Origin: a virus
Strand: one strand, 5' to 3'
Length of the DNA: 52,418 nucleotides
IMG/VR virus record: IMGVR_UViG_3300031673_000067
Coordinates: 1-52,418 of that record
A program made the translations under genes and the position numbers. Positions 1-52,418 of this stretch are shown here, piece after piece; positions within the stretch are counted from its first letter, which is position 1, and each line of letters opens with the position of its first letter. The notes under the pieces are model-generated. The model worked only from the letters and a program-made list of their open reading frames with translations. It was not told the DNA's origin and did not search any database.

Positions 1-151
1 CGTTCCATATCAACAATTTATTGACGCAGGATATTTTGAGGTAAAAGAAAAAGTCATCCCCACCGGAGAGGCTATACCAGTTACTAAAGTCACATCATCT
101 GGTATTGTGGCGATAGAGAATATAATCAGGAGAATTGGAAATGACCTGTAA
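1..151 (+). CDS. KilAC/ANT antirepressor, 3' end only
   Basis: This is the last 49 codons of an antirepressor whose complete copy lies at 50574-51152. The window begins inside the gene, so the start is missing. The reading frame begins at base 2 (V-P-Y-Q-Q-F) and ends at TAA 149-151. Compared with the complete copy there is one coding difference in this part (Thr to Ile, near base 114). The partial state is a product of where the contig starts, not a biological truncation. Confidence 0.85.
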   Translation, partial: VPYQQFIDAGYFEVKEKVIPTGEAIPVTKVTSSGIVAIENIIRRIGNDL

Positions 152-281
152 AGATTGTAAATATCAGTATAGTCATAGTAGCCGGTGTGTGTATTGTATG
201 CATTATTATGCTCGTATATATACAATACCAGACCAGATTAAAAATAAATTAACTGATAGAAAGGTGAGCATATGCAAATAA
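141..281 (+). CDS. Four-cysteine microprotein (46 aa)
   Basis: A 46-residue protein starts at ATG 141, inside the end of the antirepressor gene, and runs to TAA 279-281, overlapping the start of the next gene at 272. Cysteines 3, 6, 16 and 19 form two CxxC pairs, so a zinc knuckle is likely. The second copy at 51142-51282 differs at only a few residues (Tyr8 to His, Met20 to Ile) and keeps all four cysteines, which supports real coding. Function unknown; it may be an accessory factor of the antirepressor or of the recombination genes that follow. Confidence 0.65.
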   Translation: MTCKDCKYQYSHSSRCVYCMHYYARIYTIPDQIKNKLTDRKVSICK

Positions 282-1054
282 TTAATACCGAAATTATAAC
301 TAATGACTATTACAAAGTTCCTGCATTATCAAAAAGTTTTCTTGCAAAATTTGCAATTTCCCCGGCACATGCATTTACTAGAACTAAGTCAAAAGCGCTG
401 GGAGACGGGAAATTATTTCACGAATTCGTATTAGAGCCAGAAATATTTAATGCTAATTATGCTATTACATCATTATCGTTAGCAACAAAAGAAGGAAAAG
501 AATTTAAAGAGAATAATAAAAACAAAGAAATTATAAAAACACACGATATGGAAAAATATATTTCTATGCGAAATAATCTATTAAATTTTGATTTTTTCTT
601 TTGCAATGATTCTATGACATTTGGGGAAATAATTGTGAATTCTATAATAGAACAGGGATTTTTCGCAACTGCCAGGATATATGATATAGAATTTTCGATT
701 AAAATTAAACCGGATTTGTATCTTGAACACGATAATACAATCTTGATATTTGATCTCAAAACAGTAGAAAACGCATATAAAAACCAGCGCTGGGATTTTA
801 TTAATTACAAATATGATTGGCAATCAGAGCTATATAAAACTGTAATGCAGGCTAGATACCCGGATAAACAGATCAGATTTATATTTGTTTTGTGCGAAAA
901 AAATCAACCATTTGGCATTCGTTATGTAGAAGTTTTTAGCCCCCACGCTCTAAATAGAATAGAGGATGTTATTTTATTGCATCATGAGTGGGAATTGTCG
1001 GGAGGTGATAAATCTATTATATACAGCCCGAGTATAGAGGTATTAGAAATATGA
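272..1054 (+). CDS. RecE-like PD-(D/E)XK exonuclease (DUF3799 type)
   Basis: Likely a 5'-3' exonuclease that resects double-stranded ends for phage recombination together with a single-strand annealing or binding protein. The 260 residues follow the RecE C-terminal pattern: an N-terminal Ser/Pro-rich start with KSFLAKFAISPAHAF, a conserved His near residue 50 (G-K-L-F-H), IKIKPDLYL around D148, FDLKT with D161 and K163, and YDWQSELY with Q184. AAGGTGAG lies 5' of the ATG. It overlaps the preceding microprotein. The right end of the window carries a quite different nuclease in the same position, so this is one of two alleles at the locus. Family assignment rests on motifs. Confidence 0.75.
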   Translation: MQIINTEIITNDYYKVPALSKSFLAKFAISPAHAFTRTKSKALGDGKLFHEFVLEPEIFNANYAITSLSLATKEGKEFKENNKNKEIIKTHDMEKYISMRNNLLNFDFFFCNDSMTFGEIIVNSIIEQGFFATARIYDIEFSIKIKPDLYLEHDNTILIFDLKTVENAYKNQRWDFINYKYDWQSELYKTVMQARYPDKQIRFIFVLCEKNQPFGIRYVEVFSPHALNRIEDVILLHHEWELSGGDKSIIYSPSIEVLEI

Positions 1055-1063
1055 GGAGTAAAT

Positions 1064-1372
1064 ATGAATGAATTAGACGTAAAAGAAAAAATTGAAAATG
1101 AATTAAATGAGTATAAAAAGAAAACAATATTTTCTGATGAATTGTTGTGGATTGTCGAATATTTTGACGAATTAAATATCAGATATCTGTTAGACGCTAA
1201 TGATTTAACTTTTCAGTTTAGCTGTTACAATGAACAAATAGAGAATGATGTTAGAGCTATTGCAAAAAGCAATTATCTAACAGGTATTTTCGATGTGGAT
1301 TTTTATATCAAAGATATTTTTGATACTGGCGAGAAAACATTATTTATGAAATTAGAAAGGAAATTAAAATGA
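1064..1372 (+). CDS. Unknown 102-aa protein
   Basis: A small, acidic, mostly alpha/beta-looking protein with no recognised domain. GAGGAG precedes the ATG at 1064, and the stop overlaps the start of the SSB-like gene (1369). From codon 7 onward the sequence is identical to the partial gene at the right end of the window, but there the first six codons are replaced by a 55-residue cysteine-rich module. The gene is thus a mosaic whose N-terminus differs between the two alleles. Its position between nuclease and SSB suggests a role in recombination or DNA handling (inference). Confidence 0.75.
   Translation: MNELDVKEKIENELNEYKKKTIFSDELLWIVEYFDELNIRYLLDANDLTFQFSCYNEQIENDVRAIAKSNYLTGIFDVDFYIKDIFDTGEKTLFMKLERKLK
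1082..1208. repeat. Exact 127-bp repeat (partner 52292-52418)
   Basis: Bases 1082-1208 equal the last 127 bases of the window, with no mismatch, and the reading frame is the same in both. An exact terminal match of 127 bases is a common maximum k-mer length in de Bruijn assemblers, so the end of the contig probably marks the point where one strain path rejoins the other. Confidence 0.95.
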
Positions 1373-4081: not shown

Positions 4082-4884
4082 TTAAGTTTGTCATCATTTT
4101 TGACCCTAAACGAATATTGCGAGATGATTGCATCATTTAGTTGGTATCCAATAAAATTTAGGCCTTCCCTTTCCTCTTCCTGCGCATCTAACAATAATCT
4201 TAACTCTCTAAATCTTTTTACTTTTATATAATCTTCCCATATTTGCGAAAGAAAAAAATCTAATATTTGTGTACAGTCCTTCTCAATCGATATTAATGCT
4301 TCCGTATTGGATAGAAAATCTTGTTTTAATTTATCTATAATTTTTATATTGATTAAAGACTTAGCTGTTGTATATAACTCATTATAATCTTTGTGACTGG
4401 TAAACCCTAACTCCAGCGGTTCTATATAAGATAAAATCTGTCCTTTTAAAATTATAATTAATCCCTTATCTGTGCCTGTATAACTACATATCATTTTACT
4501 AAGTCGCTCTATGCTCGGATAAATCCCCAGTTTTTCCATTGCGAGGTGAAACGACTGGCGGTCTTTTTCTGAATTAAACACAGCCTTTTCCATCAGGATA
4601 TAATATTTATCCTGTAGTTCTAATTCTTTTTTTTTATTTTCTATTTTTTGTTTTTCTATTTCACGTTTTTCTTTTTCAGCTTGTTTTATTTCTATTTCTT
4701 TTCTATGACTTTTAATTATATTAATTAAACTCTCTAACCCTCGATTAATAAATTTTATGATTATGTAAACAATCAAAAAAAAAGAGCCTAATACAATAAG
4801 CCCTTTTATGCCTCCAATCAGATCAAACAGCTTTACAACTGCATCGGGATTATCCAAGGCTTTTTCTAATATTTTTTCATTCAT
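4066..4884 (-). CDS. Membrane-anchored coiled-coil protein (272 aa)
   Basis: No family recognised. A short N-terminal helix is followed by a transmembrane segment (about residues 28-47, GLIVLGSFFLIVYIIIKF), then a strongly charged coiled coil (about 58-95, rich in KQAEKEKREIEKQ repeats) and a helical domain. The start overlaps the hydrolase gene by eight bases. It is the last leftward gene of the late region. With the similarly built protein at 5589-6311 it brackets an alpha/beta hydrolase, so the three may form one membrane-associated unit. A role in superinfection exclusion or host lysis is possible but not shown. Confidence 0.7.
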   Translation of the reverse strand: MNEKILEKALDNPDAVVKLFDLIGGIKGLIVLGSFFLIVYIIIKFINRGLESLINIIKSHRKEIEIKQAEKEKREIEKQKIENKKKELELQDKYYILMEKAVFNSEKDRQSFHLAMEKLGIYPSIERLSKMICSYTGTDKGLIIILKGQILSYIEPLELGFTSHKDYNELYTTAKSLINIKIIDKLKQDFLSNTEALISIEKDCTQILDFFLSQIWEDYIKVKRFRELRLLLDAQEEEREGLNFIGYQLNDAIISQYSFRVKNDDKLNYLLK

Positions 4885-5587
4885 TATTTTTTTTAATAAT
4901 AGTATATAATATTTTTGCTAATTTTTTATAATTAGAAAAAAACATAGAATGATCTGTTTCAATGTTAATTATGTTTTCAATTTCATTATCATTAATCATT
5001 TGTTGCTGTAAATCATAACTAATAGCATGATCTAACAATGTTGATATATAATATTTTTTTGCAATTTTATATTTTGTACCCAATACCATTTTTTCGGTAA
5101 ATGGTATTAATGGTTCTATTGTCAATAATTGTCTTGCTAAATAATGATACATCGTATCACACTCATTATAAAACGCATCAATTATACATTCTCTATTAAT
5201 ATCAACTGTTTTATTTTCTTCATCAACAATAAGATTTTTTCCAGCGATACTATCAATATCTGTCATCGCATAATCTAATAATGATTTTCCGTTTGCTGGT
5301 GCAAATGCTGACAAATATACTCCTGTGACATCTGGATATTTTTCTAGTAATGTGCTTAAAACAATACCAGACATACTGTGTGCTACTATTATAGTTTTTT
5401 TATCAATTATTTGATCTACAATATTAACATAGTTTTGTAATGTTATATTACCAGGATTTTCTTTAGATATGCCATGTCCGGGGAGTTCTACTGCTATTGT
5501 GTTTATACCACTATAATTTAGCATTTTTTCAATTTGAAACCAGCACCATGCACCATGCCATGCCCCGTGTAATAATATTACTCTCAT
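4877..5587 (-). CDS. Alpha/beta hydrolase
   Basis: A 236-residue hydrolase of the esterase/hydroxynitrile-lyase-like type. VILLHGAWHGAWCW (residues 3-16) is the oxyanion-hole region, VAHSMSG contains the nucleophile Ser near residue 71, and TDHSMFF near the C-terminus supplies the catalytic His. There is no signal peptide, so it is cytoplasmic unless partnered. It lies next to the spanin genes and between two membrane-anchored coiled-coil proteins. The substrate is unknown: a lipid or ester on the envelope, a host metabolite, or a defence signal are all possible. The hydrolase assignment is firm; the role is open. Confidence 0.85.
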   Translation of the reverse strand: MRVILLHGAWHGAWCWFQIEKMLNYSGINTIAVELPGHGISKENPGNITLQNYVNIVDQIIDKKTIIVAHSMSGIVLSTLLEKYPDVTGVYLSAFAPANGKSLLDYAMTDIDSIAGKNLIVDEENKTVDINRECIIDAFYNECDTMYHYLARQLLTIEPLIPFTEKMVLGTKYKIAKKYYISTLLDHAISYDLQQQMINDNEIENIINIETDHSMFFSNYKKLAKILYTIIKKNNE

Positions 5588-35428: not shown

Positions 35429-35680
35429 TCATTCTACTCCCTGCCTGGCTTTTAGTTTTATAATATCTTCTCTTGCTTTTTGTACTTCTCCAGTTAACGC
35501 CCCTTGAGCTCCCTCTATTCTATCAACGGTGTCTTTTATTATACCAATGTCTTTATATATTAGTTTGTTTTCATATGGCATTCTTATGTAAGCCGTATAC
35601 ATAGTTGCCAATGTGCTCAATATTGATATAATACAGGCTACTATAATCGGAATTAATATCTTTTTAATATCGTTTATCAT
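35429..35680 (-). CDS. Small membrane protein with coiled coil (83 aa)
   Basis: An N-terminal transmembrane segment (about residues 8-30, ILIPIIVACIISILSTLATM) is followed by a coiled-coil stretch (DTVDRIEGAQGALTGEVQK). The start overlaps the stop of the sce7725-like gene (ATGA). It may be a holin-like accessory protein; no named family is recognised. Confidence 0.65.
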   Translation of the reverse strand: MINDIKKILIPIIVACIISILSTLATMYTAYIRMPYENKLIYKDIGIIKDTVDRIEGAQGALTGEVQKAREDIIKLKARQGVE

Positions 35681-36138
35681 AAATAGTTTTCCTTTTGTTT
35701 ATCAATAAAAACATGTTTTTTTATATTATCATATTTCTCTAAACTTATTGACAAATCTTTTCCATTTGTAAACCCATTATGAATTATCGTAATAGATAAA
35801 TTATTATATTTCTTGATTATGTTTTCCAAATCAACAATTTTTGATTCAGCATCCATTATATATCCCAATGATAAATTATTATAGTTTTTAAACTCATCAT
35901 TTATTAATTCTTTTAAAATTTTATTTTCCGGTACCGGATTTTTTGATACCTTTGGATTAACTACTAGTGTAAAATTAAGTTTATTTTTTTTCATAGAACT
36001 AACAGCCCTAATTAAAGATTTAAAATCATGTTTAACCGGTTCAATAATTGGATGAATATTTTTTTTTACTATAAATTTAGAGTTATCTCTTAATAAAATT
36101 AATTCAAATTGTTTTCCTCTAAAATATGGATAATACAT
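35677..36138 (-). CDS. sce7725-like (beta family) protein, probably truncated
   Basis: The first part (MYYPYFRGKQFELILLRDNS, then IHPIIEPVKHDF and LNFTLVVNPKVS) fits the N-terminal region of the sce7725/beta family, a group known mostly as the neighbour of sce7726 and without a settled function. Family members are usually near 300 residues, while this one stops at 153. Its stop is formed by the junction with the start of the next gene. AGGAG precedes the ATG. I infer loss of the C-terminal half. Confidence 0.65.
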   Translation of the reverse strand: MYYPYFRGKQFELILLRDNSKFIVKKNIHPIIEPVKHDFKSLIRAVSSMKKNKLNFTLVVNPKVSKNPVPENKILKELINDEFKNYNNLSLGYIMDAESKIVDLENIIKKYNNLSITIIHNGFTNGKDLSISLEKYDNIKKHVFIDKQKENYL

Positions 36139-36162
36139 ACTATATTCTCCTAAATAAAAGGA

Positions 36163-37053
36163 TTATTGAAATAGAATTGAATGAAAATTATGGTTTAATA
36201 AAGGTATCAATTTTTGGAGCTTTTCTCTTTGATTGCTGATACTCATTATATAGGCAGTTAAAGAATTTGGGGACTTATTTAATAATTTTTTTAAATCATT
36301 TAATTCACAACGACTTCTTAATACATCAAAGACTAAATCATGAGCCTGAATTGGGTCTATTTTATTAAATAACTTTTTACATATTTTAAATAATTGAGTA
36401 TTAGGTACATCGGGAATAAAATCATAATATCTTTTTATAACAGCAATATATTCATTTTTTTTTAAAGAATCGAATAACTTATCTTGTATTAAATATTTTT
36501 TATTTGAAACAGGTTCTCGTATTGTACTAATTGTATTCCTATCTGTAAGAACTAATAAGCCAACTTTTTCAGGTAATATACTTTTTACTTTTTCCAGTTG
36601 TGATCGGGATGTGATAATATTAATCAAATCAAAAATTTCCAAATACGCTTTTAATTGTTTATCTAATCTTTTAAATGAATCATATTTTGATTTAATTTCA
36701 TATACTGTTGATGTCCCGTTTATTATAACTACATCTGCTTTACAGTTACCGGCTCTAAACTCAGATAACATCAAAGAAGTATTTATAGAATGTTTCCCAA
36801 GTAAAATTTTATTTGCAATTGCATTTTTATAAACGTATTCATTTCGGTAATTTTTAAAAAGTAAATCATATATCCAATTTAAAACTTGACTAAATGTCAT
36901 TGATTTTTCAATTTCTTTATAAAATCCACTATTAATAAATATTTCTGATAAATATTTTGAATAGCCTATTTCTATTAAATCATTCATTACAATAGGTAAA
37001 AATATTTTGCTTATATGTGGTAAATTAATATTAATAATCATTTTTCTTTTCAT
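36163..37053 (-). CDS. sce7726-like PD-(D/E)XK protein
   Basis: A 296-residue protein matching the sce7726 pattern: RAGNCKADVVIINGTSTVYE with D107 and E119, then IKSKYDSFKRLDKQLKAYLE with K121 and Q133, which together form a PD-(D/E)XK nuclease core. The C-terminal half is helical. The family occurs next to sce7725-like genes in bacteria and phages; a role in defence or DNA processing is suspected from context, not proven. It is preceded by the remnant of a restriction gene. Confidence 0.75.
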   Translation of the reverse strand: MKRKMIININLPHISKIFLPIVMNDLIEIGYSKYLSEIFINSGFYKEIEKSMTFSQVLNWIYDLLFKNYRNEYVYKNAIANKILLGKHSINTSLMLSEFRAGNCKADVVIINGTSTVYEIKSKYDSFKRLDKQLKAYLEIFDLINIITSRSQLEKVKSILPEKVGLLVLTDRNTISTIREPVSNKKYLIQDKLFDSLKKNEYIAVIKRYYDFIPDVPNTQLFKICKKLFNKIDPIQAHDLVFDVLRSRCELNDLKKLLNKSPNSLTAYIMSISNQREKLQKLIPLLNHNFHSILFQ

Positions 37054-37288: not shown

Positions 37289-37678
37289 TTAACTACATTG
37301 ATTTAAATTAGTTTCTTCTATTATATTTATGATTTTATTCAATTCTCCACATATTCTCCAACCTGGTGGTAACCATGTAAATTTATCTTTATTCATTTTT
37401 ACCCATTTTGCAAAATATAAATGTTGTTTATATTGTGACTTTTCTGCATAATTTCCGGCTCTTGTTATTGCTGTTATATTATTATCTATATTTATTATTC
37501 CAACGTTTGATCCGTCTAGTTTTTCTGTAACTATTATCAAATCTTTCCAATCTCTGATTTTTTTCGTAAGTATTATTTCCTGCCCATATTCTATTTTTTT
37601 ATCTGCTTGTTGACTCATTTTTGATGTTGACAGGTGGGGTATGCTTCCATAATTTTTCATGCCTATTTTTTTATTCAT
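37289..37678 (-). CDS. RNA ligase-like protein, truncated
   Basis: A 129-residue fragment of an RNA/DNA ligase of the nucleotidyltransferase superfamily. Motif I is EKLDGSNVG with Lys53, followed by TRAGNY and WLPPGWRICGE (about 102-112), where the family normally continues with the rest of motif III and motifs IV and V. Here the sequence turns into an unrelated tail (LNKIINIIEETNLNQCS) and stops. The restriction remnant begins directly behind it, so an insertion or deletion probably removed the ligase's C-terminal part. Probably inactive. Confidence 0.7.
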   Translation of the reverse strand: MNKKIGMKNYGSIPHLSTSKMSQQADKKIEYGQEIILTKKIRDWKDLIIVTEKLDGSNVGIINIDNNITAITRAGNYAEKSQYKQHLYFAKWVKMNKDKFTWLPPGWRICGELNKIINIIEETNLNQCS

Positions 37679-38240: not shown

Positions 38241-38450
38241 TTAACCAGAACCATAACCAGAACCAGAACCATAACCATCACCATAACCAGAACCAGTACC
38301 ATCACCAGAACCATAACCAGAACCAGAACCATAACCATCACCATAACCAGAACCATAACCAGAACCAGAACCATAACCATCACCATAACCAGAACCAGTA
38401 CCATCACCATAACCAGAACCATAACCAGAACCAGAACCAGAACCAGAATT
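38241..38450. repeat. Hexamer-based tandem repeat (coding)
   Basis: The plus strand consists of alternating accaga, accata, accatc and accagt hexamers, which read as Gly-Ser, Gly-Tyr, Gly-Asp and Gly-Thr on the minus strand. The repeats vary, so it is not a simple satellite. Confidence 0.9.
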
Positions 38451-41133: not shown

Positions 41134-41820
41134 TTAAATCTTATACCCATTTTTTATTGCCTCATTAATAAATTTCTGTTCTGTCCATATAAGCTCTTTT
41201 GGTACGTTTGCGTGGCTAGTATGGCAGTCCGGGCACAGCATTACAATATTGAAATCTGAATTGATCAAATCTTTGCGGTATTTATCAATAGCCCATTTTG
41301 TTTGAGAAAATTTGTGGTGTTTATGCACTGCTCTTTTTCCACAAATTACGCAATACCTGGGATTCTGCATTCTGAGCTTTGCTTCCTCTATCATTTTTTC
41401 AGTTTCTATCTTTAGATACCCGGCAAGGACATCAAAGGCTTTGGAGTAAAATTCGTCTGCCTCTTCTAATGTCATATCAGAAAATGATATAGATTTTGTC
41501 ATTACATTTACACGCTCTTTTCCGTTTTTATCTTTGTAATGCGTATACCCCTCTAACCACCTACAGTCTATTTTACAGGTTTCTTCTACCTGTTTACTAC
41601 TCAACCCAGTGTTTTCTATGACAAGTGCTACACAAGCCCAAAATAGGTCATGACGCTCTATGTTATGCTTTCCTCCGTATTTTATCTGGCATGCCATTTT
41701 GGTTGCATATGGTACCGATTTTTGCGTCTGAGAGGATTTTTCAGTACATACTATGAATATGTCTTTACCTAGCATTTCCTCGGTGCACTTTATTTTTATT
41801 ATTGTTAGTTCAGCTTTCAT
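41134..41820 (-). CDS. HNH endonuclease-like protein
   Basis: The C-terminal part contains YCVICGKRAVHKHHKF and NIVMLCPDCHTSHAN: two CxxC pairs with the HNH-type His residues. The N-terminal 130 residues are a separate domain, similar in layout to small phage recombination-associated proteins, but not recognised with certainty. The start is joined to the methyltransferase stop without space. It could be a nicking or recombination enzyme of the replication operon. Confidence 0.75.
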   Translation of the reverse strand: MKAELTIIKIKCTEEMLGKDIFIVCTEKSSQTQKSVPYATKMACQIKYGGKHNIERHDLFWACVALVIENTGLSSKQVEETCKIDCRWLEGYTHYKDKNGKERVNVMTKSISFSDMTLEEADEFYSKAFDVLAGYLKIETEKMIEEAKLRMQNPRYCVICGKRAVHKHHKFSQTKWAIDKYRKDLINSDFNIVMLCPDCHTSHANVPKELIWTEQKFINEAIKNGYKI

Positions 41821-43982: not shown

Positions 43983-44855
43983 TCAATCTGGTTGTGGTTC
44001 ACCAATAAAATACCGGTTTTCATTAGTAAGTTCTTCAGGCGCAACCCTTTTTTTTCTTTTTAACCCCAGCATGATTTTTTCAAATTGGCTATATATAATG
44101 TTAGGGTTGTATTCATTTTTCTTAATAAATTCGTCTGCAAATGCAGCATCGAAAAAAGCGGAACATTGTTCTAATGAAGAGAAGCTTTTAAGAAGCTTGG
44201 ATAAGTTACCTAAATACTTCTTTGTAAAGATTAAGCTATTTATAGTATCCTGATTATATATTGCTAATAGATGATTATTATATATTTCTTTATAAAGAGT
44301 GTAACCGGATTTATCCGGTATATCTTTATTTGTTTTTTTATCTAACTCTAACTCTAACTCTAACTCTAACTCTAACTCTAACTCTAACTCTGGTGGAAAT
44401 TGTCCCGGACATTGTCCTTTAGTTTGTCCACCCTTTTTTTTGCTTTTATTCGTTATTAGTTTTTTTGCATTTTCTTCTATTTTCTTGCGATATTGAGCTT
44501 TTCTTTCCGCTTCTGTTGACCCGTGTCCTATGAAATTTTGTATATCTGATATGAATATTTCACCTGTATTTAGTATGTCTATAATACCCATTTCTTTTGC
44601 TAAATTAACAGCGTGCATAACATTTGCCGGATCATGTCCCAAGACACCTGCTAGTATATCTATCTTATCTGCCATATAAGGAATACGTTCATTTATCATT
44701 AACTGCCCTTCCCATTTAAGAGACTTCAAGTAAAGCTTTAATATAATAAGACTGTATTCATATCCATTTTTCATAGCCTCAATTACTTTTATATGATCCT
44801 GTTCAAAATAATTTTCTTTGAACTTAAGATAATAATATTTTTTATTTTCGCTCAC
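43983..44855 (-). CDS. Replisome organiser / replication initiator
   Basis: The N-terminal 130 residues fit the phage replisome organiser domain: YYYLKFKENYFEQDHIKVIE, YMADKIDILAGVLGHD, then GEIFISDIQNFIGHGSTEAE. It probably binds the origin and loads DnaB. A (Glu-Leu)8 repeat (about residues 155-171) links it to a helical C-terminal domain. GGAG lies eight bases before the ATG at 44855. Preceded by a structured leader. Confidence 0.8.
   Translation of the reverse strand: MSENKKYYYLKFKENYFEQDHIKVIEAMKNGYEYSLIILKLYLKSLKWEGQLMINERIPYMADKIDILAGVLGHDPANVMHAVNLAKEMGIIDILNTGEIFISDIQNFIGHGSTEAERKAQYRKKIEENAKKLITNKSKKKGGQTKGQCPGQFPPELELELELELELELELDKKTNKDIPDKSGYTLYKEIYNNHLLAIYNQDTINSLIFTKKYLGNLSKLLKSFSSLEQCSAFFDAAFADEFIKKNEYNPNIIYSQFEKIMLGLKRKKRVAPEELTNENRYFIGEPQPD
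44341..44391. repeat. (Glu-Leu)n microsatellite in the initiator gene
   Basis: Eight tandem aactct hexamers on the plus strand, read as eight Glu-Leu pairs on the minus strand. As the unit is six bases long, changes in copy number keep the frame and would only change the length of the linker. Confidence 0.9.
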
Positions 44856-50370: not shown

Positions 50371-50577
50371 ATGAAATACATTACTATGAAAGCAATCGAC
50401 TGGGAAAGATTTTTTCGAGAGACAGAACTAAGTCCAGCTGAGACAGCGGTAAAAATAAATAGGTCTGCTGCTACTATATATGCGTATATAGATAGAAAAT
50501 ATCTTAAACTTTCTACTATTAATAACATGATCAAAAATTTTCCAGAAATAAAAAATTATATTATTGAGGACAAATGA
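50371..50577 (+). CDS. Small HTH-like regulator (68 aa)
   Basis: Start 50371 is chosen over 50356 because AAGGAG lies seven bases before it. DWERFFRETELSPAETAVKI then NRSAATIYAYIDRKY look like a helix-turn-helix. As the first gene behind the rightward promoter it could be a Cro-like regulator of the divergent promoters. Family match not certain. Confidence 0.65.
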   Translation: MKYITMKAIDWERFFRETELSPAETAVKINRSAATIYAYIDRKYLKLSTINNMIKNFPEIKNYIIEDK

Positions 50578-51152
50578 TGAATGATTTAGAAAAAGAAAAA
50601 ACTATGACTATTAAAGAATTAGCAGAAGTTTTAAATCTTGATGTTCGTACTATACAATTAAAAGTTAAAGAGTTATTCCCTGATATAGTAAAAGAGAAAG
50701 TGAAAACTTATTTAAATGAATATCAAGTTACATCGATAAAACTTGCCTGCGAAAAAAAATTCGCAGTTAAAACTGAGCTTGAAAAAGAATTGCTTATACA
50801 TCAAGCTATGATTTATCAACAAGAAAAGATCAATATATTGCAGCTAGAAATTGAGAAAATGAAACCAAAGGCCGTTAGTTATGATATATTTATTTCCTCA
50901 AAAGGTTTACATGATATGGATGAAGTTGCAAAGCTATTCGGCACTGGTAGAAATAGACTATTTAAGCTTTTGAGAGATAATAATTATTTAAAAACCAATA
51001 ACGTTCCATATCAACAATTTATTGACGCAGGATATTTTGAGGTAAAAGAAAAAGTCATCCCCACCGGAGAGGCTATACCAGTTACTAAAGTCACATCATC
51101 TGGTATTGTGGCGACAGAGAATATAATCAGGAGAATTGGAAATGACCTGTAA
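50574..51152 (+). CDS. Antirepressor with KilAC (ANT) domain
   Basis: A 192-residue protein: an N-terminal HTH (MTIKELAEVLNLDVRTIQLK), a helical middle, and a KilAC domain from about residue 110 (SKGLHDMDEVAKLFGTGRNR, then LKTNNVPYQQFIDAGYFEVK). Such proteins inactivate phage repressors. The start overlaps the HTH gene stop. The last 49 codons are repeated at bases 1-151. Confidence 0.85.
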   Translation: MMNDLEKEKTMTIKELAEVLNLDVRTIQLKVKELFPDIVKEKVKTYLNEYQVTSIKLACEKKFAVKTELEKELLIHQAMIYQQEKINILQLEIEKMKPKAVSYDIFISSKGLHDMDEVAKLFGTGRNRLFKLLRDNNYLKTNNVPYQQFIDAGYFEVKEKVIPTGEAIPVTKVTSSGIVATENIIRRIGNDL

Positions 51153-51282
51153 AGATTGTAAACATCAGTATAGTCATAGTAGCCGGTGTGTGTACTGCAT
51201 ACATTATTATGCTCGTATATATACAATACCAGACCAGATTAAAAATAAATTAACTGATAGAAAGGTGAGCGTATGCAAATAA
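51002..51282. repeat. Right copy of terminal overlap (partner 1-281)
   Basis: Same segment as bases 1-281 with six mismatches. Behind it the two copies diverge into different nuclease genes. Confidence 0.95.
51142..51282 (+). CDS. Four-cysteine microprotein, right copy
   Basis: Same gene as 141-281, with two visible substitutions outside the cysteines (His8, Ile20) and another near the end. Overlaps the next start at 51273. Conservation of both CxxC pairs supports function. Confidence 0.65.
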   Translation: MTCKDCKHQYSHSSRCVYCIHYYARIYTIPDQIKNKLTDRKVSVCK

Positions 51283-52124
51283 CTAACAAATATAATTTAC
51301 CTGAGGCTATTGTATCTGCTATTCATGCGTTTCAGTATAACTATACAGCGTCTAAAACAGGGGAGGAAAAATTTACCGTATCTGAATTGCTTAAACCAGC
51401 GTATCAAAGATATTTGCAAAAAAAGCATTTTGCTCAGATCACGGAGGACGCTAGCGAGCGTATATGGGCGTTAATGGGACAGGCTATGCATGCAGTGCTA
51501 AATAATCAAAATGTTGATAATAGCTTGTCTGAGGAGCGTTTACGGGCTGTTATAGACAATGTTATAATTTCCGGGCAAATAGATATGTACAAAGACGGGA
51601 TAATTGATGACTACAAATTCTGTTCTACCTGGAAATATATTTTTCATGATTATGAAGAGTTTGAAAAGCAGCTTAATATCTATGCATATCTATGTAGAAC
51701 AACCGGATTGCCTGTAAATGAAATTAGAGCTATTTTGGTTTTCAATAATTGGTCTTTAGAAGAGGCAGACAGAAAATCTGCCTATCCTCAAGAGCCTATA
51801 AAAGTCATTCCTCTTAATCTCTGGGATAATGAAACTACATTAGAATTTATCCGGGAGAGAATCACAGCACATCAACATCCTCACATTTGTAACGAATCAG
51901 AACGGTGGTCTAAACAAACAAAATATGCTGTCATGAAAAATAAGAACAAATCAGCAAAATCATTATGCAATAGTTTATCAGAAGCGGAAATCTATATCGA
52001 AAATCTAAATGATACTAAAAATAAATACAGAATTGATATAAGACCTGGCGTTGATAAACGATGTAATAAATATTGTAATGTTAAGAATTTTTGTAGCTAT
52101 TATCTTGGAAAAAATAAGGAGTAA
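51273..52124 (+). CDS. Cas4/AddB-like PD-(D/E)XK nuclease
   Basis: A 283-residue nuclease in the place where the left copy has a RecE-like enzyme. ALMGQAMHAV contains His73, SGQIDMYKDG has D104, IDDYKF has D113 and K115, and EKQLNIYAYL has Q133. C206 (HICNESERW), C264, C268 and C274 (RCNKYCNVKNFC) resemble the iron-sulphur cysteines of Cas4/AddB nucleases. It is a frequent phage recombination nuclease type. Only the first codons and the start context are shared with the left allele. Confidence 0.75.
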   Translation: MQITNKYNLPEAIVSAIHAFQYNYTASKTGEEKFTVSELLKPAYQRYLQKKHFAQITEDASERIWALMGQAMHAVLNNQNVDNSLSEERLRAVIDNVIISGQIDMYKDGIIDDYKFCSTWKYIFHDYEEFEKQLNIYAYLCRTTGLPVNEIRAILVFNNWSLEEADRKSAYPQEPIKVIPLNLWDNETTLEFIRERITAHQHPHICNESERWSKQTKYAVMKNKNKSAKSLCNSLSEAEIYIENLNDTKNKYRIDIRPGVDKRCNKYCNVKNFCSYYLGKNKE

Positions 52125-52126
52125 TT

Positions 52127-52418
52127 ATGGAAAAGAAATCATATCAAGAACTTTTTGCATATAAAGTAAATTGCAAATGCGGCACTGAAAATATCATTTT
52201 TTCTGAAAATGAGGACACTCAGCAAAATGACGCTATAACTGTGTATTGTATATGTAAAAAATGTGGCAGGGTGGTAAAATTTTTACTACCGAAAGAAAAA
52301 ATTGAAAATGAATTAAATGAGTATAAAAAGAAAACAATATTTTCTGATGAATTGTTGTGGATTGTCGAATATTTTGACGAATTAAATATCAGATATCTGT
52401 TAGACGCTAATGATTTAA
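52127..52418 (+). CDS. Zinc-module fusion of the 102-aa protein, 5' part
   Basis: Cut by the window end after 97 codons. Residues 1-55 are a Cys-rich module (C16, C18, C41, C43, C46: CKCG, CICKKCG). From residue 56 on the protein is identical to residue 7 onward of the 102-aa protein at 1064-1372, in the same frame. GGAG lies before the ATG at 52127. The gene continues beyond the window, presumably as at 1209-1372. Confidence 0.75.
   Translation, partial: MEKKSYQELFAYKVNCKCGTENIIFSENEDTQQNDAITVYCICKKCGRVVKFLLPKEKIENELNEYKKKTIFSDELLWIVEYFDELNIRYLLDANDL

Follow-up and report, generated by a model that had tools for sequence, protein, structure and literature searches.

Rad52-like phage recombinases promote exchange between short, diverged sequences and drive lambdoid mosaicism, and in lambda-rev the recET genes of Rac have been incorporated in lambda (PMC3945230). 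In phages of Firmicutes, recT genes adjoin YqaJ-like, DUF3799 or DUF1351 genes (PMC8093625). The locus described here, found in a 52,418-nucleotide window that comprises a whole virus record of the IMG/VR type, resembles lambda-rev in that non-homologous recombination genes, including an exonuclease, appear swapped at one locus between related phages. Unlike lambda-rev, in which an exonuclease/annealing pair was swapped and the isolates are known, the difference here is confined to a nuclease and the 5' portion of the gene that follows, and both versions come from one assembly. The Firmicutes recT modules are similar in offering several nucleases, DUF3799 among them, as alternatives within a phage recombination module, but that pattern is seen between phage groups, whereas the present alternatives are bracketed by near-identical flanks and the scans recognised no recT. 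That phages exchange recombination genes at a given locus is already textbook knowledge; this is a new, fresh-looking instance, which became visible because of the point at which the assembler stopped.

The two ends of the window share two flanks (Table 1). BLASTN of the window against itself aligned the two copies of the upstream flank without gaps. As the first-pass annotation had reported, bases 1–281 recur at 51002–51282 with six mismatches, placed by BLASTN and k-mer counting at positions 114, 162, 194, 197, 200, and 270, and bases 1082–1208 recur exactly at 52292–52418 (127 of 127 identical). A seventh upstream mismatch lies at 282, and all seven differences in 1–285 are transitions. The same annotation had described the flank differences as mostly silent, which is incorrect: four of the six in 1–281 change an amino acid and two are silent. 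Five of these six fall in the gene for a small CxxC peptide (Y/H, M/I, and I/V exchanges plus the two silent differences), with both cysteine pairs kept, and the remaining one is an I/T exchange in the antirepressor. Between the flanks, the inserts at 286–1081 (796 bp) and 51287–52291 (1005 bp) showed no DNA or protein similarity above that of shuffled sequences. These two pairs are the only long repeats in the window apart from low-complexity tandem repeats at 38242–38448. The latter consist of about 34 AACCAG hexamer repeats (38243–38448), and a shorter tract of 8.5 TCTAAC units at 44341–44391 encodes an EL repeat within a replisome-organizer-like protein.

Table 1. Features of the two alleles and their flanks in the 52,418-nucleotide window.
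Feature	Coordinates	Strand	Basis
Upstream flank, left copy	1–285	+	Antirepressor 3' end (1–151), 46-aa CxxC gene (141–281), first left-nuclease codons
Left allele: RecE-like DUF3799 nuclease, 260 aa	272–1054	+	PF12684 5.6e-14, phrog_412 5.1e-23, 3h4r alignment
Downstream small gene, left version, 102 aa, MNELDV start	1064–1372	+	ORF; body common to right version from KEKIENEL on
Downstream shared flank, left copy, 127 bp	1082–1208	+	Identical to contig right end
Antirepressor with KilAC domain, complete copy beside right allele	50574–51152	+	PF03374 4.9e-22, phrog_63
Upstream flank, right copy	51002–51286	+	278/285 identical to 1–285
46-aa CxxC...CxxC peptide, right copy	51142–51282	+	Translation
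Right allele: PD-(D/E)XK exonuclease, phrog_2139, 283 aa	51273–52124	+	phrog_2139 5.5e-42; six-homologue alignment
Downstream small gene, right version, cut by contig end	52127–52418	+	Zinc-ribbon-like N-terminus, then shared body; 151 aa if continued at 1209
Downstream 127-bp flank, right copy	52292–52418	+	Ends at last base; read as assembly-graph k-mer junction

The length of the downstream repeat bears on how the contig ended. Exactly one 127-mer occurs twice in the window, starting where the two copies begin to agree and ending at the last base, i.e., the contig stops on the first shared k-mer with an overlap of exactly k for k = 127. JGI metagenomes are assembled with metaSPAdes using k-mer sizes of 33, 55, 77, 99, and 127, of which 127 is the last (PMC7171226, PMC11256825). 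Because the exact repeat has this last k-mer length, the right contig end is most likely an assembly-graph junction and unlikely to be the end of a molecule, and we infer that this record was produced by metaSPAdes at k = 127. At the left end, bases 1–113 match 51002–51114 exactly; since these 113 bp are 14 short of 127, the left end does not fit a plain branch of a k = 127 graph at the first mismatch and calls for an additional variant, a coverage gap or trimming. A reading of both ends as plain k = 127 overlaps was accordingly rejected. None of the other loci compared had a self-repeat at its end, in what was a small control that included some loci cut from longer contigs.

The contig probably stems from short reads of a phage with a circularly mapping genome close to 51 kb in size, joined into a de Bruijn contig (k = 127), and the sample would hold two or more variants of this phage. 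The assembler path would have led from the left allele through the backbone to the right allele, amounting to one circuit plus one extra allele, and would have stopped at the first right-allele 127-mer already used at 1082–1208. The variants would differ at a single early-operon locus, bounded by the antirepressor and CxxC-peptide genes on one side and by a small downstream gene on the other, with both alleles encoding a PD-(D/E)XK nuclease of a different family (RecE/DUF3799 vs. phrog_2139) predicted to resect DNA ends for phage recombination. The best reading of the contig is still the one proposed in the first-pass annotation, a circle of about 51 kb whose two alleles encode different nucleases; the overall interpretation given there is partly supported. 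The k = 127 overlap shows a graph junction but does not by itself establish two molecules, since any repeated 127-mer within one molecule should also halt a contig with a 127-bp overlap. Both copies might thus reside in one DNA molecule, whether as tandem prophages, as a mixed concatemer or in a genome of more than 52 kb with a duplicated locus. We consider such an arrangement very unlikely: phage modules are each present once in the contig and the copies lie one full module set apart, so that a single molecule could only be a dimer; among the scanned proteins no integrase could be recognised; and even a dimer would hold one allele per unit.

Circularity, and separate genomes for the two alleles, are suggested by the gene layout. 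The contig ends interrupt a rightward operon spanning 50356–3920, which runs without a break for either allele once these ends are overlaid on a circle, in the order HTH gene (50356), antirepressor (50574), CxxC peptide, nuclease, small gene, 155-aa gene, and on to 3920. The cut gene of the right allele, if continued at 1209, stays in frame and shares its stop codon with the left gene, giving 151 and 102 aa, respectively, and both allele junctions are in frame. The shared flank can be followed for just 285 bp upstream and for 127 bp or more downstream, hence the two phages may differ elsewhere. In the extreme case, two different mosaic phages would share only this patch, bases 1–1081 being the end of the other phage's path joined at the shared 127-mer to the right-allele backbone. 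The short extent of the observed flanks (285 bp at 97.5% upstream, 127 bp downstream) would fit this scenario, as would the position of the left allele at the contig end, where its linkage to the sequence from 1209 onward depends on the path that the assembler took at the junction. However, the left allele and the backbone form one in-frame, same-strand operon, the left flank repeats the antirepressor end and the CxxC peptide with 97.5% identity, and the left nuclease is not set apart by codon usage or G+C; we judge the mosaic scenario unlikely. As pointers to a foreign allele, codon usage and composition (G+C) were uninformative, with both nucleases resembling the backbone in codon usage.

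A chimeric misassembly, in which one nuclease segment would be foreign to phages of this kind, seems hardly credible. The junctions are known from the contig alone, but each insert carries an intact exonuclease gene of phage type, joins in frame at either end and is contiguous over more than 1 kb with flanking genes, which random joins would not give.

The assignment of the left nuclease as a RecE-like exonuclease, already made in the first-pass annotation, was confirmed by two profiles, DUF3799 (52.9 bits against a cut-off of 26) and the exonuclease VIII family phrog_412 (Table 1), and by a weak match to E. coli RecE. The latter (3h4r, E = 0.036) was the sole match in a PDB sequence search, and in this weak alignment residues H50, D148, D161-x-K163, and Q184 of the left nuclease coincide with the catalytic motifs of RecE. 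A single-sequence structure model (mean pLDDT 31.5) was unusable for fold comparison, and searches of phage, viral, and genome collections yielded no close relative. From its family, the protein is predicted to resect DNA ends for recombination. No annealing protein was recognised among the genes scanned, at a profile level that a diverged one could escape; a NinB/Orf-like protein is encoded at 41134–41820.

The right nuclease matches the phrog_2139 exonuclease profile, and family membership likewise predicts resection of DNA ends for recombination. Its best relatives are found in the Leptospira phages LE3 (37% identity) and LE4 (36%), over the whole protein. These share its catalytic residues and four cysteines, whereas their exonuclease adjoins recT and has neighbours other than those seen here. 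Across an alignment of six sequences from this family, H73, D104, D113, K115, and Q133 are invariant, as are C206, C264, C268, and C274. The right nuclease had been described as Cas4/AddB-like with cysteine ligands, of which the core and the conserved cysteines hold and the ligand layout does not. Cas4 and AddB have one cysteine N-terminal to the core and three C-terminal cysteines. The right nuclease has the same PD-(D/E)XK core and a C-terminal cysteine triad, but it has no cysteine before residue 117 and thus none preceding the core, and its fourth conserved cysteine, C206, also follows the core; the Cas4/AddB layout was rejected on this basis. A structure model of low confidence (mean pLDDT 51.5), usable in its core alone and of moderate confidence there, returned the Cas4 protein SSO0001 (4ic1) as the top fold match, with Exo5, RecE, and RecB-like nucleases also among the best, all at low TM-score.

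Both breakpoints lie inside genes. The 3' end of the CxxC peptide gene overlaps the nuclease start in both copies, and the upstream breakpoint falls within the nuclease genes themselves, the left protein starting MQIIN and the right MQITN. In the six-sequence alignment, T4-N5-K6 of the MQITNK start is invariant in the right nuclease family, while RecE-like similarity of the left protein starts around residue 12. Since the left start resembles that of the right family, the left allele may keep the first codons of a former right-type gene, in which case the right type would be ancestral, a suggestion drawn from five codons. The genes beside the LE3 exonuclease were uninformative as a test of ancestry, with no CxxC peptide there. 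The downstream breakpoint lies in the next gene, where a zinc-ribbon-like N-terminus (right) and a short MNELDV start (left) are both in frame with the same body.

Replacement recombination between related phages or prophages is the most likely origin of the allele pair. One allele would have replaced the other in an exchange between co-infecting phages or with a related prophage, through the shared flanks or through short similarity at the ends of the nuclease segment. The first-pass annotation had called this direct evidence for exchange of the recombination engine, which is too strong: two alleles are seen, with no exchange event and no annealing partner recognised. No related phage with either nuclease between the same flanks, as that annotation had envisaged, was found in viral, genome, phage or plasmid collections. 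The queries were both nucleases, the 155-aa gene, the terminase, the antirepressor, and a flank DNA pattern for viral contigs, the antirepressor and the left nuclease for genome contigs, and DNA for phages and plasmids. Returned instead were distant homologues of the right nuclease with other neighbours (about 33% identity in viral contigs, up to 37% in phages), and the 155-aa gene had one weak match. The single-protein scans require exact short peptide matches, and the search tools may omit very near records, which makes these absences weak evidence.

The locus offers a clean pair of natural alleles whose two junctions both keep the reading frame. If the variants are otherwise the same phage, it would capture replacement of a nuclease at near single-event resolution, with flanks about 98–100% identical around unrelated inserts, and would provide a natural-population test of whether phage exonucleases interchange with one partner set. 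A further-reaching idea is that phages living side by side and otherwise near-identical maintain non-homologous end-resection nucleases stably, as alternative alleles, with in-frame crossovers at the start of the nuclease gene and within the following gene, perhaps under selection from, for example, host nuclease inhibitors or defences; we regard this as speculative and rather improbable. On the practical side, a contig ending in a 127-bp copy of its own interior probably spans roughly a single genome length with one added allele, and neither its size nor its ends should be taken for those of the molecule.

Elsewhere in the genome, the rightward operon ends with a gene unusual for a phage (2547–3920, + strand), encoding a membrane protein of 457 aa whose C-terminus holds a histidine-kinase-like ATPase domain (HATPase_c 3.5e-4, below the Pfam cut-off; phrog_857 and phrog_10912, "kinase"). 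An alpha/beta hydrolase is encoded at 4877–5587 on the minus strand (Abhydrolase_6 4.6e-18). Also on the minus strand, a 129-aa ORF at 37289–37678, perhaps truncated, has an RNA ligase-like domain (PF09414 1.7e-9, covering the first 72 of 171 positions), and neighbouring genes at 35677–37053 match phrog_34524 (8.4e-21) and phrog_984 (8.8e-26), families without assigned function.
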